Shown here: in pieces, positions 7,812-22,906 of the stretch
How the letters are laid out: each line of letters starts with the position of its first letter
Position numbering within the stretch: the stretch's first letter is position 1
Virus record (IMG/VR): IMGVR_UViG_3300031920_000339
Location: 1-32,420 of that record
Strand: one strand, 5' to 3'
Source: a virus
DNA length: 32,420 bases
Position numbers and translations under genes: made by a program
Notes under the pieces: generated by a model
What the model was told of the DNA's origin: nothing
The model's input: the letters and a program-made list of their open reading frames with translations, nothing else
The model's database searches: none

Positions 7812-10800
7812 CTACACTGTTACAAGTTGAGACCTTCTTAAATTCTTCACCAGGCCATTTATAGCATCTTCCTTACCATATAATTGATGGGATTTGTTAT
7901 TCAAATTAAAATTGATTGTATATAATTCGCCTTTAGACTGAACTTCCCCTCCACTCTGCATTCTCTGAGGAGCCACAGATGCCTTAGGCAAACCACCTAC
8001 AAAGCCGCCCATTTTAAGACCCGGAATCAAAGATTGAATTTTTTCTTTAGGTATTAATTTTGACCTCAGTGCTTCAAAAAAGTTTAATCCATACTTTTTA
8101 ACAACAGACTTAGGTTGAACAAACTCTCCTGGTTCCAGCATAGCTGGAACTGTGTCCCCTGATCCAGAACCAGGAACATGGCCGCCAAAGGCCATTTTCA
8201 TTATTTCCCCACCACCCTGCTTGGCTTGAACCGTTTTCTCAACAGTTGTATGTGTTGTTTTTATATTCTTTGGAATAGAAGCTAATTTTCTAATAATGTT
8301 ATTTATGTCCGAGATAATCTCGGACTCGTTTATTTCCACCTTAGTTCTCACAATAAACGGGATTGAAGCAACAGCATCTACAATTTTTGCCGTACTTTTT
8401 TGAGCCGCAGTTGCAATGGCCTCATACATATATTGTGTTGCCGCAGTTTCTTGACGGATCCTTGCTATTCTATCATCATGAGCCTGTTTCTCCCATGTTT
8501 CTACATCAGAAGTAGTACCTTTAGCAACATCTGAAATATAATCATAAGATCCATTGATTATATTATTTATACTGGAATAAGAGTTCGACGCAACAGTAAC
8601 AATGTTGTCATATGTTTCTTCGGTCGTCTTTATATTGGCATGGTGATATGTCGCATCCAACTCTGCCATCTTTTGTCGATACTCAGCATGGATTCTGATC
8701 CCATCTTTAGACAATTCCGCTTCTTTAGAATGCACCTCCCCTAAAAGATTAAGTTCAAAATCCCTTTTTGTTTTTAACAACTCAACCCCATTATGATGTT
8801 CTTGTTTAGTCATGGTGATCTTCTTCGCAATTTGACTAAAAACAAAATTATAATGGTTTAATGTTTCTTGTGTACTTTGTGATTGAATCTTAGAAGTCTC
8901 ATCAGCAAGTCTTTTTTCTTCAGAAATAAGATTATCAATGACACTAGAATAATCAGACATGCTATGACCAACAACTATAGTCCCGTTAGAGCTATCCGAA
9001 GGAACGGTTCCTCCTGTGGCCATTTTAACAGGAACCCCGGCATTAACAGACACCATTCCGCCTGTTTGCATTCCAGGAATCAAAGATTGAATTTTTTCTT
9101 TAGGTATTGTCCTTGATCTTAATGCTTCAAATAAACCTTTTCCATATTTCTTTACAGTAGCTTTAGGTTGAACAAACTCTCCTGGTTCCAGCATAGCTGG
9201 AACAGTGTCCCCTGATCCTGAACCAGGAACATGGCCTCCAAAGGCCATTTTAATTATCTCTCCTCCTCCTTGCCTTGCTTGAACTGTTCTCTCGACAGTT
9301 GTTTTTATTATTGCCGTTTCTATAGTCTTTGGGATATCTTTAAGTGTTTTTATATATGCTTTTACTGCCTTGTCCGCCCTATCCAAAGCCTTTAAAGTAG
9401 GAGTAACATCTAATCGTAATTTAGAATCTTTGTTAAAAGACGCTATCTTTTCCTTAAATGAGTTAAATGCACTTTCTGTTTCCTTAATTCTGGTCCTTAC
9501 CGAACCAAGCTCTTCTTCAAATACGCCTATCTTTGAAGAAAAAATTGCTTGTAACGCAGACGTAGAATTAGCAACTCCCGCTACAGCAACCTTAACGGTC
9601 TCTGCAACCGACATAATAGTGTTGCCAGACTCATCCTTAACCTCTTTCGCTAACCCTTGGTATATCCCTCTTGCTTCCTTGGCATACTCACCTGCCTTTT
9701 CGATATTGCCAGCTTGCAATTCAGTATTGGATTTAGCGAGAAGCTCATCTGCTCTTAATTTCTCTTCATTCCATACCTCAAGATCGGTCATTAACTTCTG
9801 ATTCAACTCACGAATTAAATCATCACCTGTTTTAGTGATGTCTGCTCTTTCTTCCTGTGCGTCACGGATAGCGCCTGTAAGACGTTCTTCCTCTGAAATA
9901 AGAGAGTCTATCGTCTTCTTGTATGCAGCCGATCTTTCATCGTATAACTTCTTTATCTCGTCATTTCTTTTTTTCTTTGCTTCAAATATTTCTTTTTCTT
10001 TTTTGTCAGCAGACTCACCAGAGGTTGTTATCTTAGTAAGTATTCCGTCATATGTTTCGTTTACTATTTTTGTTAACTCATTAAAATGCCTGTTGCTTTC
10101 AGCACTAACATCTTTATAATATTGTTGCTTCGTTTTAAATAAAACCCGGGTTCTTTGTTGCTCAGACATTGCAAAAGAAGAAATACGAATTAACTCCCTC
10201 TTCAATCTGGTATCCAACATCCCAAGAATATTATCGTGACCTCTTTGTGCTAATTCTGCAACCAGTTTATAATATTCACCGGTATTTTTTAATTTCTCGT
10301 AATTCTTGTCTCTCAATACAACTATTTTATTTTCTTCCAGGCTTATTAATTTTTGCAAACTATTTTTATGCAATGCTTCTTCTTCGATGCTAAACCTATT
10401 TATCAGTTCTAATTTTTGTTCTTCTGTTCCTATAAAACTATTTAACTCTTTGTTCTTTGCCTCGTGAAATTTAACCTGGGCGATATCATATTTTTCTACT
10501 TCTTGTTCTATATACCCGTCCAACAATTCTAATTTTCGTTCATTAGTATCTCTTGTTATATCTATCGAAATTTCTTCTCTTCTAATAATCCCTTCTAAAA
10601 CAGCCTTAAATCTTGCTTCTGAATTAACTTTATATTGCTCTTCAGCTTGATTTTTACTTTCTAAAGAACCGCTATGCTTAGCCGCATCTTTTAAATAAAG
10701 AGCTTCCTTTTCTTGAAAAGCTTTGTACTCTTTTATAATACCTTCTTTTCTTGAATCGTCTACCTTTTGATAAATCTCTGCCCATATTCCATTAAGCTTG

Positions 10801-13382
10801 CCTACAGCACTTGCATTCCTTACTGCTGCTTCAGCGGTATCGTCAAGATATTTCTTTAATGACACTGACAACTCTGACAACTTGTCTTCAGCCATATCTG
10901 TATGTTTCCCTAATGCACCTGCTATATCCTCTAATGTAGAGCCTGCCGAGACACCATATTCAACTACCTCCCCTGCTAATATTTTTAAAGCCTGTGCCTG
11001 TTGCATAGACATAGCTTCCATTTCCTGTGTTGCCTCTACTCCTTCTACAACTTTGCCTATCACAAAATCAACTGCGGCTCCTATTGATCCGTAATATGAT
11101 TTAATCGCCTTTGAAACAAAACCAATAGCTCCTTTAAGACCAAAAAGCTTAGTAGCAAGTGGAGCGATTTTCTTAAGAACTCCATCTACAGCAATTTCAT
11201 AAAGACCCGTTGCTAATTTGGCTCTATCTATTTTGTTCCCATATTCATCATACAGATTGATTAAGCTTGCTATTTTTTCATCATGTTTGTTCTTTATTAA
11301 TTTGTCGAGCGCTTTTCCTTCATCAGCAAAACTCATTGTTGCGAGGTCAACACTACTGCGTAATTTAGGGTAATCATTTAGAAGTCTTCCCATCACTGAA
11401 GAATATTCTAATGACCCCTTCTCTGCTTCGGCAAGCTTGCTTCTGTATGATTCAAGAGTCTGAACTTGCTTATTGACACTAATTATATTTGCTTCTATAA
11501 CATTTGTTGCATTTGCTATCTTTGCAACCCATGTAGAAATGGCCACAATAACAAGAGACACTCCTATCAGAATAGCGGTATAAGGATTTTTAAGCATCTG
11601 TAGCCACAATTTATTAAAAGCCTTACTAAGAGCTACTATTGCTACCCTCAGAATGCCTGCTCCTTTAGCGGCAACCATTGCCTTAACAGACATGGCTGAG
11701 TAGCCAAAAATAACCGCAGCTAACTCAATCACTATTTTAGAAAAAGCAACCTTTAAAAGTATCATAGCAGTGGTTAGCGCTGTGGTACCTATAATAATTT
11801 TACCAATAGTACTACCTGCCATCTCTGTCAACAAATCTACCACTGGTCTTGTAACTTTATAAAAAATTCTAAATACACCTGTAAGACCAGACTCTCCTAT
11901 AGTGATCGCCAACAACCCAATTTTGTCCATCAGGTTCTTGGACATGACCCCAAGCCCCTCCATCTGCTTAGAAGCCATTTTATGAGCAGTCCCAACATTA
12001 TAAACTTCAGTCAGCATTTTTTGAAAGCCTTCTGCTCCAGCTTCTGTTAAAGCAGATACAGCGGCAGCCCCTCTTAAACCGAACAATTCAAATGCAGCCT
12101 GTGCATCTGGGACAACTCTTGTTAACTCCCCTATAATTGTTTTAAATGAAGCTGTTTTTGGATTTAACTTTGACATGTCTGCGCCGACGGCAGCAAAAGA
12201 AGATCTTAACTTGTTGGTTGGACTGATAAGTCTTGATAAAACTTGTCTAAGACCAGTTCCTATTGTACTTGCTCGCATACCTCTATTGGCAAGGAGCATG
12301 GCTCCAGCAGCAGTTTCCTCTAATGATAAGCCTGCATTGTGTGCAATTGGCGCAATGTAGTTAAATGCTGTGTTTAACTTATTTACTGTCAATTTTGATT
12401 TGTTTACTGCACTTGCAAATATATCAACAATTCGACTCGAATCAGAAGCATTAATACCAAATGCTCTAACTGCGGTTGTAACAAGATCGGCAGCAGTTGT
12501 CATGTCAGACAACGTCCCTGTAGCGAGCAGCGAAACCGCTCCAACTGCATCAATTGACTCTTCTGCTGTAAATCCTGCCTGCCCTAATATAACAGCGGCA
12601 TCAGCTACCTCTTTAGTTGAATATTTGGTTTCACTTGCAACCCTCCTAATTGTTTCCCCTAAAACAATTATTTCTGAATCAGTGGCTCCAGTGATAGCCT
12701 GCAAATTCTTTAATGCCTGGTCAAAGTCAAAAATAACATCTATAGCACTCCCAATTGCTCTTATAACGCCATAAATAGCAGCACTTGCCATACCGTATGC
12801 CATAGTTGATTTCATAGCGCCAGCGAGCGACTTAAGAGCGCTGGTGGTCTCTATTGTTTTCTTACCAACTTCTTTTATTTCTTTCCCTGCTGTTTTTGCG
12901 CTTTTCCCGGCTTTGGTTAAATCTCTTCCATAAAAAGAGGTTTTCTTAGCAGACTTTTCAGCAGCGAAACCGCTTTCCTCGAAACCCTTCTTTGTTATTT
13001 TCATTTCCCCTGACACAATTTTCTGCGTTTTAGATAATCTGTCAGAGTCCTTTATAAAAGTTTTATAATCACCTCCTGCGTCTTTGATTGCGGCAGACTG
13101 CCTAACCAGAGAACCTTCCACCTGCTTTAATGTAGAGGTGTATTTTTTATGAGCAACTGATCCTTTTTCAAAACTTTTATCTATCCATTGTTGTGCTTTG
13201 TTAAAATTTGCTAACTCCTTACTCGCTTTACTTGTTTGGCTTTGAAGAGCAGACATCCCATTGTTGAATGTGGCGAACCTTCTATTGAGCTTAGAAATTT
13301 TACTTTCAAGGCCACTAATAGACTTAGCAAATTCATCTACCTTCCCATAAAAACGAATTCCAAGTTTTATTTCTTTGCCCAT
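7812..13382 (-). CDS. Tail tape measure protein
   Basis: 1856 residues, by far the longest gene. Residues about 215-410 match the conserved tape measure core (ATGATDSEI, TKEVADAAVILGQAGFTAEE, DMTTAADLVTTAVRAFGI, IAPIAHNAGLSLEETA, MRASTIGTGLRQVLSRLI). Two hydrophobic segments lie near residues 530 and 607, followed by long charged helical coiled-coil stretches (about 860-1340). The motif GGHVPGSGSGDTVPAMLEPG occurs twice, near residues 1380 and 1730, inside a duplicated block. The protein sets tail length and may help form a channel at DNA entry. At about 0.15 nm per residue it predicts a tail near 280 nm, if not processed. The start overlaps the chaperone stop as TAATG. Confidence 0.95.
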   Translation of the reverse strand: MGKEIKLGIRFYGKVDEFAKSISGLESKISKLNRRFATFNNGMSALQSQTSKASKELANFNKAQQWIDKSFEKGSVAHKKYTSTLKQVEGSLVRQSAAIKDAGGDYKTFIKDSDRLSKTQKIVSGEMKITKKGFEESGFAAEKSAKKTSFYGRDLTKAGKSAKTAGKEIKEVGKKTIETTSALKSLAGAMKSTMAYGMASAAIYGVIRAIGSAIDVIFDFDQALKNLQAITGATDSEIIVLGETIRRVASETKYSTKEVADAAVILGQAGFTAEESIDAVGAVSLLATGTLSDMTTAADLVTTAVRAFGINASDSSRIVDIFASAVNKSKLTVNKLNTAFNYIAPIAHNAGLSLEETAAGAMLLANRGMRASTIGTGLRQVLSRLISPTNKLRSSFAAVGADMSKLNPKTASFKTIIGELTRVVPDAQAAFELFGLRGAAAVSALTEAGAEGFQKMLTEVYNVGTAHKMASKQMEGLGVMSKNLMDKIGLLAITIGESGLTGVFRIFYKVTRPVVDLLTEMAGSTIGKIIIGTTALTTAMILLKVAFSKIVIELAAVIFGYSAMSVKAMVAAKGAGILRVAIVALSKAFNKLWLQMLKNPYTAILIGVSLVIVAISTWVAKIANATNVIEANIISVNKQVQTLESYRSKLAEAEKGSLEYSSVMGRLLNDYPKLRSSVDLATMSFADEGKALDKLIKNKHDEKIASLINLYDEYGNKIDRAKLATGLYEIAVDGVLKKIAPLATKLFGLKGAIGFVSKAIKSYYGSIGAAVDFVIGKVVEGVEATQEMEAMSMQQAQALKILAGEVVEYGVSAGSTLEDIAGALGKHTDMAEDKLSELSVSLKKYLDDTAEAAVRNASAVGKLNGIWAEIYQKVDDSRKEGIIKEYKAFQEKEALYLKDAAKHSGSLESKNQAEEQYKVNSEARFKAVLEGIIRREEISIDITRDTNERKLELLDGYIEQEVEKYDIAQVKFHEAKNKELNSFIGTEEQKLELINRFSIEEEALHKNSLQKLISLEENKIVVLRDKNYEKLKNTGEYYKLVAELAQRGHDNILGMLDTRLKRELIRISSFAMSEQQRTRVLFKTKQQYYKDVSAESNRHFNELTKIVNETYDGILTKITTSGESADKKEKEIFEAKKKRNDEIKKLYDERSAAYKKTIDSLISEEERLTGAIRDAQEERADITKTGDDLIRELNQKLMTDLEVWNEEKLRADELLAKSNTELQAGNIEKAGEYAKEARGIYQGLAKEVKDESGNTIMSVAETVKVAVAGVANSTSALQAIFSSKIGVFEEELGSVRTRIKETESAFNSFKEKIASFNKDSKLRLDVTPTLKALDRADKAVKAYIKTLKDIPKTIETAIIKTTVERTVQARQGGGEIIKMAFGGHVPGSGSGDTVPAMLEPGEFVQPKATVKKYGKGLFEALRSRTIPKEKIQSLIPGMQTGGMVSVNAGVPVKMATGGTVPSDSSNGTIVVGHSMSDYSSVIDNLISEEKRLADETSKIQSQSTQETLNHYNFVFSQIAKKITMTKQEHHNGVELLKTKRDFELNLLGEVHSKEAELSKDGIRIHAEYRQKMAELDATYHHANIKTTEETYDNIVTVASNSYSSINNIINGSYDYISDVAKGTTSDVETWEKQAHDDRIARIRQETAATQYMYEAIATAAQKSTAKIVDAVASIPFIVRTKVEINESEIISDINNIIRKLASIPKNIKTTHTTVEKTVQAKQGGGEIMKMAFGGHVPGSGSGDTVPAMLEPGEFVQPKSVVKKYGLNFFEALRSKLIPKEKIQSLIPGLKMGGFVGGLPKASVAPQRMQSGGEVQSKGELYTINFNLNNKSHQLYGKEDAINGLVKNLRRSQLVTV
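8023..8249 (-). repeat. Tape measure internal repeat, distal copy
   Basis: About 227 bp highly similar to 9076-9302, offset 1053 bp (351 codons, in frame). It encodes VQAKQGGGEIMKMAFGGHVP, then the DTVPAMLEPGEFVQPK segment, then KEKIQSLIPGLKMGG. Long runs of DNA identity, for example around 8023-8055, show a real duplication. Confidence 0.85.
9076..9302 (-). repeat. Tape measure internal repeat, proximal copy
   Basis: Partner of 8023-8249. It encodes VQARQGGGEIIKMAFGGHVP, the same DTVPAMLEPGEFVQPK core and KEKIQSLIPGMQTGG. Just after it comes DNLISEEKRLADETSKI, which resembles DSLISEEERLTGAI ahead of it, so the duplicated unit may be about 351 residues long with a more diverged helical part. 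Confidence 0.85.
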
Positions 13383-14159: not shown

Positions 14160-14744
14160 CTAATCCCAAAGAATCGTTCCCAATGGTTTTGAATCCCAAA
14201 TTGCATTTCCTCCTGAGACATCAGAATTAGCCGCCTGTGATTCAAAAACAAGAGTAACTGCTGCTGCATCTTCACTGGCAAAACCAAGCTCTGGAGTTGC
14301 GGACACCTGTGCCCTTGGAAAAATGATGTTCATGTGATTCGTGCCATTTGTGTAAGTATAAATAGCTTCCATTCTAACATAAGCAGGAGCCGTTCTGCCG
14401 CCAAGGGCAATCTCACCAGAATGAGTTGTGTATGTCCCATCATCAGGATCAAGCCCCTGTGCTAAAGCCATATTAGCAGGAGTTACCTCTTTAAAAGCAC
14501 ACTCCAATTGAGCAGCCTCTCTTGTAGGGGTAACATAATCAGTGATAAGAGGGAACCCAGACTCTAATTTAAACCAGTCTGTAGGGCCTCTAAAAGTTGT
14601 TGACGCAACAGCGCCAATTGAGTCGGCGCTTGTAAGAATCGCCTCGCCACTACCGATATTGTCCGCAGAATTACCAACCCTTATCTGTGCGAAACCGAGC
14701 ACGATCGAATCGGCATTAATTGTTATTGGTCCACTTCTTGCCAT
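14160..14744 (-). CDS. Major tail tube protein
   Basis: 194 residues with a strong AGGAGG site before the ATG at 14744. The order of features matches phage tail tubes: an N-terminal DSIVLGFAQIRVGNSADN strand, DWFKLESGFPLITDYVTPTR, and a C-terminal IIFPRAQVSATPELGFASED followed by AAVTLVFESQA, the beta strands that form the tube wall. Gly, Ala, Thr and Ser are abundant, with no Cys besides one. It lies directly before the chaperone pair, as expected. With no sheath gene nearby this supports a siphovirus tail. Confidence 0.8.
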   Translation of the reverse strand: MARSGPITINADSIVLGFAQIRVGNSADNIGSGEAILTSADSIGAVASTTFRGPTDWFKLESGFPLITDYVTPTREAAQLECAFKEVTPANMALAQGLDPDDGTYTTHSGEIALGGRTAPAYVRMEAIYTYTNGTNHMNIIFPRAQVSATPELGFASEDAAAVTLVFESQAANSDVSGGNAIWDSKPLGTILWD

Positions 14745-15517: not shown

Positions 15518-15713
15518 TTTTTACACTCTCTAATACTTCATTAAGCATCTTTGCAAAGTTAGTTAACTCTTCTACTGCCGTTTGTGTTTCGTCGTCACAA
15601 ACAATAACATTACTTTTGCTTAAAGCGAAAGATAATTTATTTATTTCAGCCATACTCAAATCAAAAATAATGGAAATCTCTTTTGGTTTTATATCTATAA
15701 CTTTCATAACCAT
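15507..15713 (-). CDS. Small protein in head-tail junction operon
   Basis: 68 residues, helical and mildly acidic (DLSMAEINKLSFALSKSNVI, AVEELTNFAKMLNEVLESVK). The frame has two starts: ATG at 15713 with GGAT close upstream, and ATG at 15707, which overlaps the previous stop as ATGA. Both are plausible and give 68 or 66 residues. No motif is visible. It sits between the tail completion gene and the tail terminator-type gene and overlaps both, so it is probably a real member of the operon. The function is unknown. Confidence 0.55.
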   Translation of the reverse strand: MVMKVIDIKPKEISIIFDLSMAEINKLSFALSKSNVIVCDDETQTAVEELTNFAKMLNEVLESVKNGN

Positions 15714-16168
15714 AAATCCGATATTCTATTTAGCATATTATTAGCACGTTTTTGTATTAATTCTCCGTCTATGTATTCATATGCAGTTGGCTCAAATAAA
15801 GGTCTTCTTGACTCTTCCTTTGTCGCATATACAGAACTCCTGGCAATTTCACTTATTCCTGCGCCCCACCCCTCTTGGCATCTAAAAGACTCAACCTCAT
15901 TAAAAAGTTGTCCGGAAAGCCTCCAAGGAGCAGGATACCCTTTTTTACCATGTTTTTTCTTCCATGATGCATAATCTTTATTATATGGGGGAATTGGTGT
16001 TTTTCTTGTTAATATATTTTTCAACAATAATTGACGATAATCTATACTAAGAATTTCATTAAAAGCGCCTCCATTGTCTATGAGTTGCCTTCTTACTTCT
16101 TTTTCTATTTTTTTTAAAGAAGAAAGAACGTGTTTAATATCTTGTTCGTCAAATTGTATTTTTAGCAT
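15704..16168 (-). CDS. Tail completion/virion morphogenesis protein
   Basis: The start chosen is the ATG at 16168, inside the end of the previous gene (coupled translation). A longer frame to 16303 would overlap that gene deeply and lacks a ribosome site. The 154-residue product has an N-terminal helix (IKHVLSSLKKIEKEVRRQLI), the region TRKTPIPPYNKDYASWKKKHG with PAPWRLSGQLFNEVESF, and a SSVYATKEESRR segment. The Y..WKKKHG...L.SG.L pattern is that of phage tail completion or HK97 gp10-type neck proteins. It resumes the structural genes right after the glycan cassette. Confidence 0.65.
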   Translation of the reverse strand: MLKIQFDEQDIKHVLSSLKKIEKEVRRQLIDNGGAFNEILSIDYRQLLLKNILTRKTPIPPYNKDYASWKKKHGKKGYPAPWRLSGQLFNEVESFRCQEGWGAGISEIARSSVYATKEESRRPLFEPTAYEYIDGELIQKRANNMLNRISDLWL

Positions 16169-16571
16169 TTGGCAAAACCCATCCATCGAGTAGGCGCTCA
16201 AACACACAATCACTTGCATTGTGTGGCAAAAAAGAATCTGCTCCAAGCAAAACAGTGTTGTGAAATATTCTTGGTGCTTGTGAAATCCTTTCGTCCCCAA
16301 CAAGTCCTTCTTTCTTCATTAAAACCAAACTATCAAACACTTTTTGTTTTAAAAAAATAGGAAGAGCATCTCTTACTGCTGGGTCGATAATTTCATCAGA
16401 AAAAATATATCCGTACCATTCGGTATCCACACCCCATTCACGTATGCTGTTAGATAGAGCCCGATGGTTCAAAATATAAGAATGGGATACAATATCCCCA
16501 AAAGAGTCTATTGCATCATTGGGTCTATGGTTTCCCAAATTATCGCATGTCAAAACATACAAAGTAAGCAT
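16149..16571 (-). CDS. Glycosyltransferase-like protein of the cassette (uncertain)
   Basis: 140 residues with AGGAGG before the ATG at 16571. It has a short N-terminal strand (LTLYVLTCDNLGNHRP), then a region NDAIDSFGDIVSHSYILNHR, YGYIFSDEIIDPAVRDALPI and ERISQAPRIFHNTVLLGADS. This resembles the shortened GT-A-like proteins found beside phage sugar-transferase genes, with SDE as a possible metal-binding site. The protein is short for an active glycosyltransferase and I do not recognise a family with certainty. It is the last gene of the cassette and overlaps the next structural gene by 20 bases, so it is translated with it. Confidence 0.4.
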   Translation of the reverse strand: MLTLYVLTCDNLGNHRPNDAIDSFGDIVSHSYILNHRALSNSIREWGVDTEWYGYIFSDEIIDPAVRDALPIFLKQKVFDSLVLMKKEGLVGDERISQAPRIFHNTVLLGADSFLPHNASDCVFERLLDGWVLPNAKNTI

Positions 16572-16572
16572 T

Positions 16573-17190
16573 TTACTTTCCTCCTCTTTTTAGAGTAAAA
16601 AAGCCATGTGCCTTGCCACTATACGGACCTTTTATTCCAGGGACACTATATGATGTTTTTTTAACATCCCACCCGGTGCTTAAAAACATTTGCTTCCACC
16701 ATTTTAAAGGCTCACATGTGACATGTGTAATATCTAAATTATTATAATCGGCATAGTATTCCCCGTTTTCCCCAAGAGGAATGACGGCAAACATATTATC
16801 AGCATGAATACCCTCTAAAACAGGTAGCAATTGTGGCCATTCTACATGTTCAAGAACATCCTTAGCAAGGCACCAATCAAAATTTATATCAAGCATCTCT
16901 GGCAACAATGTACAATATTCTGCAATTTCTGGGTCGGCATTGGAAATAGCATATTCACTTATGTCTGCCCCCCATGCTTTAATTCCAAATTGTCTAAAGG
17001 CTTTGACGACATATCCGAATGCGCAACCATAATCTAATATTGTATCTTGTTTTTCAATGCCTAAATAATTAATCATTGACGACACCATCAATTTTGTCAA
17101 TGATGGCAACCACCGATAATTATGATATCCGCTTTTTCCTGTATTCAGCCCGTTTTGATAATAATTCTCATCATAAATACTACCGTTCAT
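16573..17190 (-). CDS. SAM-dependent methyltransferase of the cassette
   Basis: The start chosen is the ATG at 17190, with AGGAGG seven bases upstream. The frame extends to 17262, but that overlaps the promoter. The 205-residue product has the class I methyltransferase core: ILDYGCAFG (residues 51-59, the SAM-binding loop), GADISEYAI with acidic D76, and AKDVLEHVEWPQLLPVL. It belongs to the Methyltransf_11/23 type, common in polysaccharide and capsule loci. The substrate is unknown and may be a sugar made by the neighbouring glycosyltransferases. It is the first gene behind a strong internal promoter, so it may be expressed apart from the rest. Confidence 0.8.
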   Translation of the reverse strand: MNGSIYDENYYQNGLNTGKSGYHNYRWLPSLTKLMVSSMINYLGIEKQDTILDYGCAFGYVVKAFRQFGIKAWGADISEYAISNADPEIAEYCTLLPEMLDINFDWCLAKDVLEHVEWPQLLPVLEGIHADNMFAVIPLGENGEYYADYNNLDITHVTCEPLKWWKQMFLSTGWDVKKTSYSVPGIKGPYSGKAHGFFTLKRGGK

Positions 17191-17233
17191 TTTCCGCCTC
17201 CTGTGGTGGATTATTTGTGCTTTATATCTTATA

Positions 17234-17262
17234 TATATACCATGTACATCTACATTTGTCAA
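17234..17262 (-). promoter_or_regulatory. Strong internal promoter in the glycan cassette
   Basis: TTGACA (17257-17262), a 17-base spacer ending in ATGG, and TATATA (17234-17239) form a near-consensus sigma70 promoter with an extended TGG before the -10. It lies in a 108-base gap, the longest gap inside the cassette, and reads into the methyltransferase starting at 17190. The first eight bases and the spacer end match the distal tail promoter at 1004-1032. A likely start is near 17227. The rest of the gap holds no gene. Confidence 0.75.
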
Positions 17263-17298
17263 GATCCCATATTACATTCTAAAATACTTATAAGCTGT

Positions 17299-17877
17299 TT
17301 ATTTTATCGCTTCCATAAACAATGAAAATTGAACCCTGTTGTCTAAATCTGAAAGTCCTTTCAAAACCGAGTTCTTAAAAGGGCATCGATAAAAAACTTT
17401 AAACCCTGAAACATACAACAATGAAGATAAACATTCCTTAGAAATCAACTGTACATGTTCATTGAAAAACAACGCCATTTCCAAAAAAGACTTACCGTCG
17501 GATGAATTTTTTTCACCCCAATTTACGACATTCCCGTTATCTTCACATACTTGAAGATTAAGCATTAATTCAGGATCAGGAACCGATACACGAAGCACGC
17601 CTTTTTTTCTTAAAACTCGTCTGCACTCCTTTATTAATTTTAGAGCATTATGAATATCCATATGCTCTAAAATATGAGAACAAAGGACCCCATCTATTTC
17701 GTTGTCGTTAAAGGGAAGGCCTTTGTTCAAGTCGTGATCTAAATAATTCGGCTCTTTATCCATATTAATTCTTTCCGGACATTCTGGATTAGGAAAGATA
17801 GAATGTAAATCATCAATATTTATCCATAACGGCATCTGTGGTCTGTTTGACCCACACCCTAAATTTAAAAATTTCAT
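17299..17877 (-). CDS. SAM-dependent methyltransferase (Methyltransf_11 type)
   Basis: 192 residues. The ATG at 17877 overlaps the previous stop as ATGA. FLNLGCGSN at residues 3-11 is the SAM-binding loop, followed by VLCSHILEHMDIHNALKLI and ECRRVLRKKGVLRVSVPDPE, a standard class I core. This subtype is common in lipopolysaccharide and capsule gene clusters, where it may methylate a sugar or act beside glycosyltransferases. It lies between the sulfotransferase-like protein and the promoter-driven methyltransferase. The two methyltransferases are not closely alike. The substrate is unknown. Confidence 0.8.
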   Translation of the reverse strand: MKFLNLGCGSNRPQMPLWINIDDLHSIFPNPECPERINMDKEPNYLDHDLNKGLPFNDNEIDGVLCSHILEHMDIHNALKLIKECRRVLRKKGVLRVSVPDPELMLNLQVCEDNGNVVNWGEKNSSDGKSFLEMALFFNEHVQLISKECLSSLLYVSGFKVFYRCPFKNSVLKGLSDLDNRVQFSLFMEAIK

Positions 17878-18551
17878 TTTATCACCGATTTAATTAACTT
17901 TTCATATAATTTGTTTGATTTGGGATGGCTTTTCTTGAATTCAAATTTTTCTTTTCTGCTAATATTGTAAATTCTCGAACGATCGTATACAGCGGTTGCA
18001 ACTGGTTTTATTTTCAAGGAGCTTAAAATCTTATTGATTCCTTTAGGCCATGACGAATGGCAATCGACAACATACGCCCCATCGTTGATCAATTCGTCGG
18101 CAGCAGATTCTATAGACAACCACGATTTTAATATCCTTTCATCTGGCCATTCCTTACTATGTGATCTTGTTCTCAACGTCTTGATTATGCCGAGAGGATG
18201 CTGTATTCCAACGATATATTTAGCATTAGGCCATTGTTTTTTAAAAATATCTTTTATGATATCCCACGTTTGAAGACCGTGTGTAACTTTAACCCCATAA
18301 AAAGATTTTGGTTCTTTTTTATAACTAATCAAAACCTTTTCAATTGTATTAAGACTTTCTTGTTTGACTCCGTTATAGAGAATATCTGCCATTGTGTTGT
18401 TTAAAAGTCCGTGTTCGCAATTAGCATTACAAGAATCGTCCCAAAAAGTATTTTTATTGCCCACAAACATTCCACCTTCTTTAAGTGTTTTGGAAACAAG
18501 ACTTGAAGCGGCATGCCAATGCGAAAGAATTACTATTTGTGTTTCTTTCAT
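17874..18551 (-). CDS. Sulfotransferase-like P-loop protein
   Basis: 225 residues with GGAGGGAGG before the ATG at 18551. The layout is that of sulfotransferases: an N-terminal strand and loop (IVILSHWHAASSLVSKTLKE with GGMFVGNKN) equivalent to the PAPS-binding loop, then AKYIVGIQHPLGIIKTLRTR equivalent to the 3'-phosphate-binding strand and helix, and later DGAYVVDCHSSWPKGINKIL. The usual G-R-S-G-T loop is replaced by SHWHAASS, so activity is not assured. If active, it would move a sulfate to a sugar or a protein. It overlaps the methyltransferase by 4 bases. Confidence 0.6.
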   Translation of the reverse strand: MKETQIVILSHWHAASSLVSKTLKEGGMFVGNKNTFWDDSCNANCEHGLLNNTMADILYNGVKQESLNTIEKVLISYKKEPKSFYGVKVTHGLQTWDIIKDIFKKQWPNAKYIVGIQHPLGIIKTLRTRSHSKEWPDERILKSWLSIESAADELINDGAYVVDCHSSWPKGINKILSSLKIKPVATAVYDRSRIYNISRKEKFEFKKSHPKSNKLYEKLIKSVIK

Positions 18552-18560
18552 CCTCCCTCC

Positions 18561-19553
18561 TTAAACAAACTCCTTGTGAATAAGGTCATGAGAAACCTTA
18601 TTTGGCCGAATGCCATTCTTTTTCCATGTGTCAAGCATGTTGACGTTATCTGTGAATACACAGCCGTTGCAATCTTTTCTAATATTGAAACCCATGTTTA
18701 TTTTTCCATCAAGAAAATCCAAAACTTCATTGGCATTGCATATCTTATATTTGTCGTCAAAGAACTCAACATTATTGTTTAAGACCAGCGAATCACATGG
18801 GTAAACTGTTCCTCCGTCGACCTCGCTTAAATAGGGCCTAAAATAAGCCTGATGACAATATTTAGGATTAGGGGTTCCATGAAATTTATATTGATGAAAA
18901 AAAACATCACTACCTACTTCATCAAGGATGTCGTCTATTTTATTATGCTGTTTTATCAAATCTTCTTGACTCAAAAGACAGTTAGGCAATACTCTTACGT
19001 ACTCTAAGCCTATTTTCTTTGCAAAACTCTCTACTTGGTAAAACTTATCTATATCTTGTCCAGTATAAATAAAAGATCCACCAGTAACACCATTCTTTAA
19101 TCTTGGGATAAATATTCTCTTATCCCAACCGTCAAAAGTATTAATACTGACCCGAGCCCATGAAAATAAATCCCATACGTCATTATCAACCTTATTTGAG
19201 TTTGTCCCGTTCGTGATAAGTGCTGTTTTAAGGCCCTTATCAGCTACCCAGCGAACTAACTCATTAAAACGAGGGTATAGAGTAGGCTCTCCACCTCCAG
19301 TCAGGATAACGGCCTTTAAGCCCCTGCCAATTAAATCCCTAACATACTTCTTAGCAACATCAATTTCAATTCTAAAATTTCTTTTTCTTTTTTTTACAGA
19401 ACAGAAAGAACAATTAAGGTTGCATGTACCTTCTGGAGAAATGTGAGTAGATATTATCGAATTTTTATGATTGATCAAATACTTATTCATTTGATCATGT
19501 TCCCAAAACTTTGCGCCGGTGCTTGTAAAATTATTCTCTTTTATACTCTTCAT
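18561..19553 (-). CDS. Radical SAM enzyme with SPASM-like C-terminus
   Basis: 330 residues with GGAGGG before the ATG at 19553. C44-x3-C48-x2-C51 (GTCNLNCSFCSV) binds the 4Fe-4S cluster of radical SAM enzymes, and GGGEPTL at 86-92 is the usual second SAM-binding motif, followed by LKTALITNGTN. The C-terminus has further Cys (YCHQAYF, TVYPCDSL, KICNAN, KDCNGCVF) in a SPASM- or twitch-like spacing that may hold auxiliary clusters. Such enzymes modify peptides, sugars or cofactors by radical chemistry. In this cassette a sugar or a virion peptide is the likely target. The substrate is unknown. Confidence 0.85.
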   Translation of the reverse strand: MKSIKENNFTSTGAKFWEHDQMNKYLINHKNSIISTHISPEGTCNLNCSFCSVKKRKRNFRIEIDVAKKYVRDLIGRGLKAVILTGGGEPTLYPRFNELVRWVADKGLKTALITNGTNSNKVDNDVWDLFSWARVSINTFDGWDKRIFIPRLKNGVTGGSFIYTGQDIDKFYQVESFAKKIGLEYVRVLPNCLLSQEDLIKQHNKIDDILDEVGSDVFFHQYKFHGTPNPKYCHQAYFRPYLSEVDGGTVYPCDSLVLNNNVEFFDDKYKICNANEVLDFLDGKINMGFNIRKDCNGCVFTDNVNMLDTWKKNGIRPNKVSHDLIHKEFV

Positions 19554-19554
19554 T

Positions 19555-20244
19555 TTATAAACCCTCCTTCAAATACTTTTCAAAATAAGAAGCTTCCTTG
19601 TGGTGTTTTGGATAGGTGTCTCCGAACTCACTGTCTATACTATGAAGATAAGAACATACCTTCCCGACATCATCTCTTTTATCTTGAGGCGTAGAGCTAT
19701 GAAAATGGTTAATGATAGGATTATTTAGATTACAATATATACCCCTGTGACCACTTAACTGTTCATGCAATTTCCTTACATATCTAAGATCGCTATCTAA
19801 TCTTGTCATTCTTGCCTGATAATCAGGATAAACATTGTAGTCTTTTTTAGACTTTGTCATTGCTGTATCGTACCAGTCTATTCTTGGGAAAGCGACAACA
19901 TCGAAATTATTGGATAGTTCTTCGCCGATATGACGCAAGTGGTGAACACATCTCCCTAAAATTCGCTCGTCTGCATCAAAAAAAACATTCCATTTTGATT
20001 CAGGGAAAAACTTTCTTGCCATTTCTCTTAAATGGTTCCTTGCATTCCCATATCCCTCCTTGGTAATGATATCTGAGTGAACGACCATCACATCATTGTC
20101 TTCAAGTATCTGTTGGGAATGGTCCGTAGACGTACCAAGAACAACTATTATTTGATTGGTAACGCCTCTCATGTTGTCTATCCATCCATTCAACTGAGCC
20201 TCTTCATTCTTCATGTTCGAAGTTATAACTATCTCTCTTGTCAT
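19555..20244 (-). CDS. Glycosyltransferase family 2 (WaaE-like)
   Basis: 229 residues with GGAG before the ATG at 20244. REIVITSNMKNEEAQLNGWI is the usual GT2 start. NVFFDADERI (D90-A-D92) is the metal-binding DxD, and YPDYQARMTRLDSDLRYVRK with LHEQL is the acceptor-side pattern of the WaaE/KdtX group. WaaE-type enzymes add glucose or a related sugar to an inner lipopolysaccharide core. The C-terminal HKEASYFEKYLKEGL is a normal helix. It ends one base before the radical SAM start. Role: adds one sugar to a glycan whose identity is not known. Confidence 0.8.
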   Translation of the reverse strand: MTREIVITSNMKNEEAQLNGWIDNMRGVTNQIIVVLGTSTDHSQQILEDNDVMVVHSDIITKEGYGNARNHLREMARKFFPESKWNVFFDADERILGRCVHHLRHIGEELSNNFDVVAFPRIDWYDTAMTKSKKDYNVYPDYQARMTRLDSDLRYVRKLHEQLSGHRGIYCNLNNPIINHFHSSTPQDKRDDVGKVCSYLHSIDSEFGDTYPKHHKEASYFEKYLKEGL

Positions 20245-20252
20245 TTTTTCTC

Positions 20253-22295
20253 CTATTTAGAAATTCTCTCTATCATTATTGGCCTGGGCCCCCTTGCTGC
20301 ATCTTTTATATCCCTAACGATTTCATATGGGTCATGAGAACCAGTACATTTAAGATCGCAGTCCTTAACAGAACCGCTACATGGCCCAAGACATGCCATC
20401 TTTACATAATTTGGAATACGGCTAATAAGAATTCCCTTGGTTTGATTTGGCCTTACCACTCGGTAATTACCACATCCAAACAAGCATACTTGATTCAGCC
20501 CAATTGCACCTGCTAAATGGGCCAGATATGAATCAATTGTGACTGCAACTTCTGCCCGTCTCATTATATATGCGGTCTCTGCATATGTCGTTTTCCCTCT
20601 TAAATCAACGCTTGCAAAAGCGTTGATATCATTTTTTGAACCAAGTTGAATTGTAAGGTATTCCTCCTTTATCTCTCTACAAACATCACTCATGAATTTG
20701 TATGTTCTGAACTCTTTATCTCCACCTGATGTTTGAACTATGCATATCGGTTTTTTAGAAGCCTTTCTCCAGCCAGACACAGGCGTTTCAGCAATATAAA
20801 AATCATCTGGAACAAGATTAAGTATCTTCCAATAAAAATCGCTAAGAATTGAATTAGAATTTCTCCCCCATGATCCTTGAAGAATTTTATCCTTATGAAT
20901 ATCAAGGACAAATTTATAATCCTTCTTGATATCCTCATTGTATGGCAAAACATTGTCTATATATGGATTGCCTTCGAGAACTCCGGCATATTGAGGAAGA
21001 GTCATATAGTCTATAGGCAATTTGTATCTGTCTTTGAGCCCCTTAAAACACCTTGTTGTCATTAACACATCGCCAGCGGCACTATGTTGAGCAAACAACA
21101 AGCGATTCTTTTTCTTTATCTTCTTTTGAACGCTTTTGACTAAAATAGAATTTATATCCGAGACAGTACTGACCCAATTACGTCCTCTCTCAATGCCATT
21201 CTTTGTCATTTTATTTTGTAATTTTTTGTCAGAAGAGACTTTTATAATAGCGTCTTTAATATCATCAGAGCGACTTGTGTAAGAAGTCACATGGGAAGTT
21301 CCACCGATAGTTGGAACAGGAATGTATATTTTCTCTTTAGTCTTTACAAGCTCTCCAACGCCTTCAATTAGCTCTGTTTGAGACGTTGTCTCCGACCCTA
21401 TAACAGGTATCCCACAAAGCATTGCTTGCAGCACAGTCCAACTCAGGCCCTCCTGAGCAGAACAATTGACAAGACAGTCTAATGAATTATAAACATCTAC
21501 CATTTCCTCTTCTGAATAGACGGCACCTTGTTTTTTGGTTATTATATCGCCAGTCTTGGCGCCAAGATCAACGGCCATTTGCTTTAAGTTGTACACACCG
21601 TCTTCAAATTCAGAATGAATGTACAAAGAAATATCGTCATTGTCTTTCTTTGCAAGAAAATAAGCCTCCATTAGATTAGGGATACATTTTCTTATTTGGT
21701 TCTTTGCAATACAACCAATTACAAACTTAGATGAAAAATCAGCTCCAAAATACCTTGCCCTCGTTGTTTTCTTTTTGTCAAGAGAATAAGGCTTATATAA
21801 AGCCGAACTCCTAAGAGATGGCTTAAAATACTTTAATTTTGGAACATATGGTTTTAACTCATCGTATCCAAACCGACTATACACACAAGGAACATCTACA
21901 CAATTTATCCAATCTATCCAATCTTTTCTTATTTTGTATAAATCCCATGGAAAGATTGACACCCAACAAAAAGGCTTGTTATTTTTAATCGCCATTATAT
22001 TATTGAGTACAGGAGAGTATCTCCAGATATCAAGGCCTACCATAACCAAATAGTCTACTTCAAACGACTGAATTGTCTGCAAAAAAATACCGAGTCCCTC
22101 TTTGCTATAAGGATTCGATATGGTTTCCATTTTAATTTCTCTGTCAAAAAACGGATCTGCAACACCTATTTTATTTACTAAGCACGAAACATCATATTTT
22201 TCATTGTCTACCTGCGTTAACATTCCATAAAGCATATTCCCATTGCCTGTTCCAGACATGGGATTGTCACCAACAAAAAGAACCTTTTCTCTCAT
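20253..22295 (-). CDS. Fused glycosyltransferase: GT4-like + GT9-like
   Basis: The start chosen is the ATG at 22295, which overlaps the previous stop as ATGA and has AAAGGA upstream. This gives 680 residues. Residues about 1-375 are a GT-B GT4-like domain (VLFVGDNPMSGTGNGNMLYG, KFVIGCIAKNQIRKCIPNLM, YSEEEMVDVYNSLDCLVNCS, EGLSWTVLQAMLCGIPVIGS). The usual E-x7-E motif is E-x7-Q here. Residues about 395-680 are GT9-like (RLLFAQHSAAGDVLMTTRCF, ICIVQTSGGDKEF, TIDSYLAHLAGAIG), with a C-terminal Cys cluster CLGPCSGSVKDCDLKC. GT9 enzymes move heptose. Fusion of the two halves suggests two successive sugar additions. It opens the cassette, coupled to the head-closure gene. Confidence 0.85.
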   Translation of the reverse strand: MREKVLFVGDNPMSGTGNGNMLYGMLTQVDNEKYDVSCLVNKIGVADPFFDREIKMETISNPYSKEGLGIFLQTIQSFEVDYLVMVGLDIWRYSPVLNNIMAIKNNKPFCWVSIFPWDLYKIRKDWIDWINCVDVPCVYSRFGYDELKPYVPKLKYFKPSLRSSALYKPYSLDKKKTTRARYFGADFSSKFVIGCIAKNQIRKCIPNLMEAYFLAKKDNDDISLYIHSEFEDGVYNLKQMAVDLGAKTGDIITKKQGAVYSEEEMVDVYNSLDCLVNCSAQEGLSWTVLQAMLCGIPVIGSETTSQTELIEGVGELVKTKEKIYIPVPTIGGTSHVTSYTSRSDDIKDAIIKVSSDKKLQNKMTKNGIERGRNWVSTVSDINSILVKSVQKKIKKKNRLLFAQHSAAGDVLMTTRCFKGLKDRYKLPIDYMTLPQYAGVLEGNPYIDNVLPYNEDIKKDYKFVLDIHKDKILQGSWGRNSNSILSDFYWKILNLVPDDFYIAETPVSGWRKASKKPICIVQTSGGDKEFRTYKFMSDVCREIKEEYLTIQLGSKNDINAFASVDLRGKTTYAETAYIMRRAEVAVTIDSYLAHLAGAIGLNQVCLFGCGNYRVVRPNQTKGILISRIPNYVKMACLGPCSGSVKDCDLKCTGSHDPYEIVRDIKDAARGPRPIMIERISK

Positions 22296-22906
22296 CTTGT
22301 ATCCTTTGAGAGTCTGCAAACGTCAACCCCTATATACCGATATCTATTTACAACCTCTACTTTATAGTATTCCCCGCTATAAGGAGAATATCTGTCATTT
22401 ATTTTTGCACCAACATAAGAGGGCAAAAATAATTCATTATCTTCCAATTGCGTTAAGGAAGACACGTCATCAACCATCTTGTTTCTGAATTCTGGATTAA
22501 TAAATAGAGAATGGCAATTCTCTCTTACTGTACCCCAGGCTAATTCCTTACGATATGTAAATGTATTCCATACTTCTCCTGAAGAACGAGTTAATTCTCC
22601 AGAGGTATTACAAAAATACAAAATGCCTTGTTTTGTTATTGTTGCACTCTCAAACGACTCTGTATTTAAAGTTGTTATTAAATATTTATCTTGTGCATTT
22701 TCAAGAGCAAGAATATCTCCGGATACCGCCTGTGTGTCGTATGCAAAAAGAGATTTCTTAAAATAGGATATGATAAATGGCTTGGTTGCTTGCTCATTTA
22801 TTTCTAATATGCACGACTCCCCTGATATATTTCCTCCGTCACGCAAAATAACAACAGGAGAACCCATTTCAAAAAGAACACCTTTTATATCCTCGCCGAT
22901 TGACAT
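22292..22906 (-). CDS. Head closure/stopper-type protein
   Basis: 204 residues from the ATG at 22906 behind AGGACG. The sequence (MSIGEDIKGVLFEMGSPVVI, LRDGGNISGESCILEINEQA, TKPFIISYFKKSLFAYDTQ, VSGDILALENAQDKYLI) is a type found beside head-tail adaptors in AT-rich prophages. Position after the adaptor and before the tail genes, once the cassette is set aside, is that of the stopper that closes the portal after packaging. I cannot assign a named family. Its stop overlaps the first cassette gene as ATGA. Confidence 0.6.
   Translation of the reverse strand: MSIGEDIKGVLFEMGSPVVILRDGGNISGESCILEINEQATKPFIISYFKKSLFAYDTQAVSGDILALENAQDKYLITTLNTESFESATITKQGILYFCNTSGELTRSSGEVWNTFTYRKELAWGTVRENCHSLFINPEFRNKMVDDVSSLTQLEDNELFLPSYVGAKINDRYSPYSGEYYKVEVVNRYRYIGVDVCRLSKDTR

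Follow-up and report, generated by a model that had tools for sequence, protein, structure and literature searches.

Why are genes for sugar-modifying enzymes placed among those that form the neck of a phage particle? The question is raised by a 32.4-kb virus record from IMG/VR (IMGVR_UViG_3300031920_000339, positions 1 to 32,420; 32,420 nucleotides, hereafter the window), in which a cassette of seven such genes lies between two neck genes. It is probable that the cassette is a cytoplasmic, modular virion-glycosylation locus in the late gene run of an uncultured group of siphovirus-like phages. This reading is built on the gene content and synteny of the locus, the exchange of its middle part, its stepwise states, purifying selection, the lack of membrane proteins, and the predicted GT-A fold of the product of its last gene, gtl.

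Gene content and position of the cassette

20253–22295, minus strand: fusion of glycosyltransferases of families GT4 and GT9 (GT4-9), 680 residues, conserved 5′ anchor; Pfam Glycos_transf_1 and Glyco_transf_9
19555–20244, minus strand: GT2 glycosyltransferase, Pfam GT2; family present in 18 of 18 non-empty cassettes
18561–19553, minus strand: radical S-adenosylmethionine (SAM) enzyme (rSAM); PF04055 Radical_SAM, E = 6e-14
17874–18551, minus strand: sulfotransferase-like protein (ST); homologue in the related cassette L138
17299–17877, minus strand: methyltransferase 1 (MT1); PF08241, E = 4e-11; homologues in L133 and L138
16573–17190, minus strand: methyltransferase 2 (MT2); phrog_27380, E = 4e-33; Pfam methyltransferase; reading frame opens at TTG 17262
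16149–16571, minus strand: gtl, 140-residue protein with a predicted GT-A fold, conserved 3′ anchor; AlphaFold and Foldseek, alignment of 22 sequences
22292–22906, minus strand: HC, neck gene preceding the cassette, named 'head closure' from its position; syntenic homologue before GT4-9 in every relative mapped
15704–16168, minus strand: TC, neck gene that follows the cassette, named 'tail completion' from its position; shares 20 bases with gtl

The original prediction of a seven-gene cassette of these enzyme types holds. All seven open reading frames (ORFs) are open on the minus strand at the positions it gave, and Pfam backs the GT4-GT9 fusion, GT2, the radical SAM enzyme, and both methyltransferases. 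Neither ST nor gtl has a significant Pfam match of its own. The description of ST as sulfotransferase-like is supported indirectly, by one homologue in cassette L138 (L138:12165–12932) that belongs to Sulfotransfer_3 (PF13469, E = 8.7e-9); ST alone as a query found no relatives among viral contigs or in the PDB. Translation of MT2 probably starts at ATG 17190 rather than at TTG 17262, as judged from the start codon context and from homologues, which start likewise. A purine-rich stretch resembling a ribosome-binding site is located upstream of most cassette starts.

The cassette occupies a single site. GT4-9 follows the same neck gene, HC, in about 43 IMG/VR contigs, which include all mappable loci of the GT4-9 scan and some near-identical assemblies. 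The set of relatives was extended by scans with alignments of GT4-9, gtl, and the capsid protein, together with a hidden Markov model (HMM) survey; a scan of viral contigs with a single GT4-9 sequence had no matches, and it was the alignment-based scan that found the relatives. The capsid scan identified 16 contigs at 73–78% identity, with GT4-9 after HC in all 10 that reach the site. The distance from HC to GT4-9 is 0.6–1.8 kb in four contigs (L119, L124, L126, and L129), and one additional gene is present in L008. Nineteen loci span the region from GT4-9 to TC, and gtl is the last gene before TC in every complete cassette. Scattered, unlinked insertions in relatives, which the original prediction had named as evidence against itself, were looked for and not found, the same neck site being used in the approximately 43 contigs.

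The overlaps with the flanking genes, ATGA between HC and GT4-9 (22292–22295) and 20 bases between gtl and TC (16149–16168), are real. The former is particular to the window phage, and relatives mostly have a gap of 7–57 bases between HC and GT4-9; the latter recurs in most relatives. The overlaps had been taken as a sign that the cassette is coupled to virion translation and is not loose cargo. The fixed neck site agrees with this view, but start and stop overlaps are weak evidence, because phage genes are tightly packed anyway. Likewise, the names head closure and tail completion fit the positions of the neighbors, but searches of PHROG, Pfam, and NCBIfam assigned no family to either protein.

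In an alignment of 23 GT4-9 sequences, in which the relatives are 31–44% identical to the window protein, residues R202, K203, and E282 of the GT4 half and D409, D588, and H593 of the GT9 half are invariant in all 23. We take the three GT9 residues to be the counterparts of the catalytic aspartate and the nucleotide-sugar motif of WaaC. The second glutamate of the GT4 E-x7-E motif is replaced by glutamine in the window, L049, and L129. AlphaFold predicts confident domains for GT4-9, and the fold nearest to its GT4 half is that of the chlorovirus protein B736L. The C terminus of the window GT9 half has cysteines at positions 635, 639, 646, and 650, a spacing that differs from the four-cysteine iron finger of TibC (Cys339, 342, 358, and 370), and TibC was absent from the PDB profile matches of GT4-9.

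The description of gtl as glycosyltransferase-like gains support from its structure prediction. The AlphaFold model is confident, with a predicted local distance difference test score of 87, and its best PDB matches in Foldseek are GT-A enzymes, so that gtl is predicted to have a small GT-A fold. Among solved structures, ThuS and SunS, both peptide S-glycosyltransferases, are closest in fold, and the capsid glycosyltransferase A64R of chlorovirus PBCV-1 comes next at a slightly lower score; these matches, with E of about 4e-4, indicate fold and not activity. The window GT2 has a weak match to the SunS peptide S-glycosyltransferase model (E = 8e-4).

A single weak hydrophobic segment was detected in five of 164 middle genes, and P22 GtrC, GtrB, and GtrA score 8, 2, and 1, respectively, by the same measure. 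A membrane flippase and polytopic transferase of the gtr type were not encountered in the cassettes. The solubility of the enzymes makes stepwise glycosylation in the cytoplasm likely.

Exchange of the cassette middle and stepwise states of the locus

The genes between GT4-9 and gtl vary in number from none (L049) to 17 (L139). The 149 middle ORFs of at least 80 residues fall into 55 families, 28 of which have a single member, and only the GT2 family is present in all 18 non-empty loci. The smallest set of the window type, in L104, consists of GT2, rSAM, and MT2; L133, L137, and L138 are larger, and L138 contains homologues of ST, MT1, and MT2. All four of these cassettes encode homologues of rSAM and of MT2, the latter adjoining gtl. 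Other cassettes end with a B12-type radical SAM enzyme or a different methyltransferase. When 146 middle proteins were sorted by Pfam family, radical SAM enzymes, methyltransferases, GT2, GT4, and GT8 glycosyltransferases, pyruvyl transferases, and nucleotide-sugar enzymes prevailed, and rhamnosyl O-methyltransferase and GDP-mannose dehydratase were also present; the 25 commonest families include none of tail fibers. The middle of L020 contains a DegT aminotransferase and a GNAT protein.

The original prediction proposed a search for co-inheritance of the cassette with particular capsid or tail genes. The content of the middle does not follow the capsid (Mantel r 0.05, p 0.24 for capsid identity against middle content in 16 loci). 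A short major tail protein is present in all 15 cassette phages scored. The capsid of the window phage is 73–78% identical to those of phages that share one middle family with it, GT2, and 46–55% identical to those of phages that share three to five. Because content does not track capsid relatedness, the gene comparisons indicate that the middle is exchanged independently of the capsid. Pairwise ratios of nonsynonymous to synonymous substitution rates of the cassette genes are 0.03–0.15, similar to those of HC, TC, and the capsid gene; therefore, the cassette genes are maintained. Errors of metagenome assembly may have altered individual contigs, but they are unlikely to account for a pattern that recurs. 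ORFs resembling HNH/NUMOD homing endonucleases were observed inside two cassettes (L018:11081–11794 and L016:15240–17536) and are a possible route for cassette exchange.

The locus exists in graded states. Phages without a cassette, in which HC is directly followed by TC, include L099, L109, and others identified by a scan with long-form tail proteins. Eight loci contain only gtl between HC and TC (L131, L159, L163, and L176–L180), so that gtl is not strictly tied to GT4-9. In L049, GT4-9 and gtl enclose an empty middle, and cassettes of small and then of large size complete the series. On a tree of 40 capsid sequences, the cassette label requires seven changes, at least four of which are forced by well-supported branches, so that the cassette was repeatedly gained or lost, or moved together with neck genes. 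A gtl-TC fusion, considered on account of long TC matches in L150–L155, was ruled out by the sequences themselves.

Acceptor of the putative glycan and alternative functions

We infer from these features that a glycan is produced, what its chemistry may be, that the virion accepts it, and that it brings a benefit. The GT4-GT9 fusion and GT2 would assemble a glycan core common to the group in the cytoplasm of the host, and the exchangeable middle genes, in the window those for the radical SAM enzyme, the sulfotransferase, and the two methyltransferases, would give this core a trimming or capping specific to each phage. The gtl protein may initiate the chain or direct the enzymes to their acceptor. 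The sugar would be attached to a virion protein of the same operon, for which the tail tube, the head decoration protein, and a neck protein are candidates, and the outcome would be a coat on the particle that varies among strains. Such a coat might alter adsorption or enable escape from defenses that sense the capsid or tail. Given where the cassette lies in the gene order, the virion is the most fitting acceptor.

A candidate acceptor is suggested by the major tail protein, which lacks an insertion that is common in phages without the cassette.

14160–14744, minus strand: major tail protein, short form without the insertion, candidate acceptor; phrog_476, E = 8.5e-4

An insertion of about 105 residues at one loop of this protein is present in 18 of 19 phages that have neither the cassette nor gtl, and the phages with gtl only are mixed (four short, two long). 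This association is a post hoc observation. The direction is consistent in the four independent pairs that have support (mean 3.4 same, 0 opposite), a number too small to reach significance. Linkage of neighboring genes is a full alternative explanation of the association: the cassette phage L123 has a capsid that groups with those of insertion-bearing phages, and its neck proteins are of the cassette type by HMM score, so that block transfer of neighboring genes can explain this case. Tentatively, cassettes with conserved ends and swapped middles could form a serotype-like system in which the tail tube, or a different virion protein, is covered with modified sugars specific to the strain, in place of the tail-protein insertion of the cassette-less relatives; we would not put this proposal at even odds. 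In one phage with gtl only, the major tail protein (L131:6216–6851) terminates in about ten consecutive threonines, which could plausibly be an acceptor tail for O-glycans.

The nearest functional precedent is the reported glycosylation of capsids and tail tubes of mycobacteriophages (Freeman et al. 2023, as summarized in PMC12619734 and PMC11600133), in which phage glycosyltransferases and a methyltransferase are encoded in one genome. The locus described here differs in combining a GT4-GT9 fusion, gtl, a radical SAM enzyme, and a sulfotransferase in one exchangeable neck locus, and its glycan is putative. No sequence relative of GT4-9 was found among sequenced mycobacteriophages at E <= 1e-5. 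Chloroviruses PBCV-1 and NY2A also encode glycosyltransferases, with a methyltransferase domain, for their capsids (PMC4691112), and the likeness extends to the folds of A64R and B736L, which resemble gtl and the GT4 half. However, these viruses infect eukaryotic algae, the resemblance is at the level of fold, and no exchangeable single locus is described in the text consulted from PMC4691112.

The locus was not found in any cultured phage of the collection searched. In a tblastn search of 50,697 phage records with GT4-9, matches were confined to Tetrasphaera phage TJE1 and Microcystis phage Mae-JY09; GT2 had no matches. In Mae-JY09, the gene of a GT4 protein (RfaG) lies a short way behind that of the major capsid protein and ahead of the head-tail adaptor and tail completion genes; however, this is a single GT4, the match covers 21% of the query at 26% identity, and no GT9, gtl, or cassette is annotated.

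The strongest rival of virion glycosylation, which we consider real although rather unlikely, is that the enzymes modify host surface polysaccharide late in infection, working from the cytoplasm on, for example, the core or the O-chain of lipopolysaccharide (LPS). This would block superinfection or the loss of progeny onto debris, and the neck site would merely tolerate cargo. Several points weigh in its favor and against the virion as the acceptor. GT9 is the family of LPS heptosyltransferases, and cytoplasmic GT4, GT9, and GT2 enzymes could equally modify the host LPS core without membrane proteins of their own. Homologues of the window rSAM and MT2 belong to sugar clusters of other phages: rSAM is 48% identical over 99% of its length to a protein of Pelagibacter phage HTVC008M, and MT2 is 35% identical to proteins of HTVC008M and Synechococcus phage SynMITS9220M01, in both of which a homologue of rSAM adjoins. 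The pair in the cyanophage SynMITS9220M01 adjoins ADP-heptose genes, and glycosyltransferase genes are nearby there and in HTVC008M. In HTVC008M, unlike in the window, the two homologues follow ribonucleotide reductase genes, outside the virion genes. Pelagimyophages have a hypervariable island, the 'host recognition cluster', with glycosyltransferases and radical SAM enzymes in their structural region, which has been interpreted as serving host recognition and modification of the host surface O-chain (PMC7029224). The locus described here resembles this island in its hypervariable glycosyltransferase and radical SAM content within the structural region. Pelagimyophages are T4-like myophages with islands of about 45 kb that contain tail fibers, whereas the locus described here has fixed GT4-9 and gtl ends and no tail fiber family among the most frequent Pfam families of its middle genes. 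Furthermore, the presence of gtl without GT4-9 in eight loci suggests that gtl may have a separate role, and the likenesses to peptide glycosyltransferases are at the level of fold or weak profile. A tyrosine-recombinase family match in five of 11 large records of the group suggests that some of the phages may be temperate.

By contrast, flippases, polymerases, ligases, and further membrane proteins are absent from the cassettes. In P22-type serotype conversion, the phage-encoded glycosylation genes gtrABC specify membrane proteins and lie beside an integrase, whereas the cassette is soluble and located among virion genes. The cassettes also keep to one fixed site among the virion genes, and in most loci the end of gtl is shared with the virion gene that follows, which argues against a host surface function. 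The phosphoheptose isomerase family SIS_2 was not found in the 11 records searched, and a supply of ADP-heptose by the phage was rejected for this reason. The soluble enzymes, the late-gene position, and the likeness of GT2 and gtl to glycosyltransferases of peptides and viral capsids favor modification of the virion over classical O-antigen conversion. The claim that the virion is decorated with a complex, modified sugar is thus supported in part, with host surface modification as a rival.

It is distinctly improbable that a recombination hotspot between the neck genes gathers exchangeable sugar-enzyme cargo without a single shared function, with a fixed role only for GT4-9, GT2, and gtl. The lack of a relationship between middle content and capsid phylogeny and the homing-endonuclease-like ORFs of L018 and L016 are in line with such a hotspot, but nearly all assignable middle genes encode sugar, methyl-transfer, or radical SAM enzymes instead of mixed cargo, and purifying selection on them is at a virion-like level. 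Glycosylation of phage DNA with hypermodified bases, a frequent role of phage glycosyltransferases in known systems (PMC7029224), is highly improbable, because the thymidylate synthase and pyrimidine hydroxymethylase family (PF00303) is present in none of 11 large relatives, whose records may be incomplete, the cassette lies among virion genes, and the folds resemble peptide and capsid glycosyltransferases.

Virion glycosylation is so far represented by few cultured cases among phages. If the cassette glycosylates the virion, particle glycans evolve like bacterial capsule loci, with a middle that is swapped between fixed ends independently of the capsid. The 'glycotype' of a particle would then be a heritable, exchangeable trait that bears on host range, evasion of defenses, and immune recognition, and the locus would be a ready source of unusual sugar-modifying enzymes.

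The surrounding virion genes and the phage group

The virion genes of the window are ordered on the minus strand as large terminase (phrog_9), portal region, head maturation protease (phrog_53), major capsid protein (phrog_29), neck genes, major tail protein (phrog_476), and tape measure protein. A scan for promoters and terminators gave no signal clearly above shuffled sequences. The protein encoded after the capsid gene, g23940, was considered as an obligatory acceptor of the putative glycan; it is missing from some phages with GT4-9, such as L049, and from all cassette-less phages; some of its absences, for example in L047, are start-codon artifacts of ORF calling.

A search for the host over genome contigs returned a single generic GT4 match of 49 residues, in a Desulfuromonadales bin that has no capsid homologue, and a capsid search in 395 genomes of the phylum of this bin yielded weak HK97-type matches only. 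On these grounds, the link to Desulfuromonadales was dropped as a host clue.

One group of relatives has a major-tail-protein-like gene between gtl and TC (L022:14683–15207, L036:20641–21165, L025, and L061). Its product has an N-terminal signal of the twin-arginine translocation type (PF10518, E = 2.4e-4, just below the cut-off) and perhaps serves superinfection exclusion. The cassette-less phage L099 encodes a different GT4 and a methyltransferase between terminase and portal (L099:3737–5685). GT4-9 is divided between both ends of the 92,469-bp contig G024 (L091 and L133–L136), so that this contig probably represents a genome of the phage group that is circularly permuted and nearly complete. 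In the tape measure gene of the window (7812–13382), the segment ..GGGEI.KMAFGGHVPGSGSGDTVPAMLEPGEFVQPK.. is present twice.

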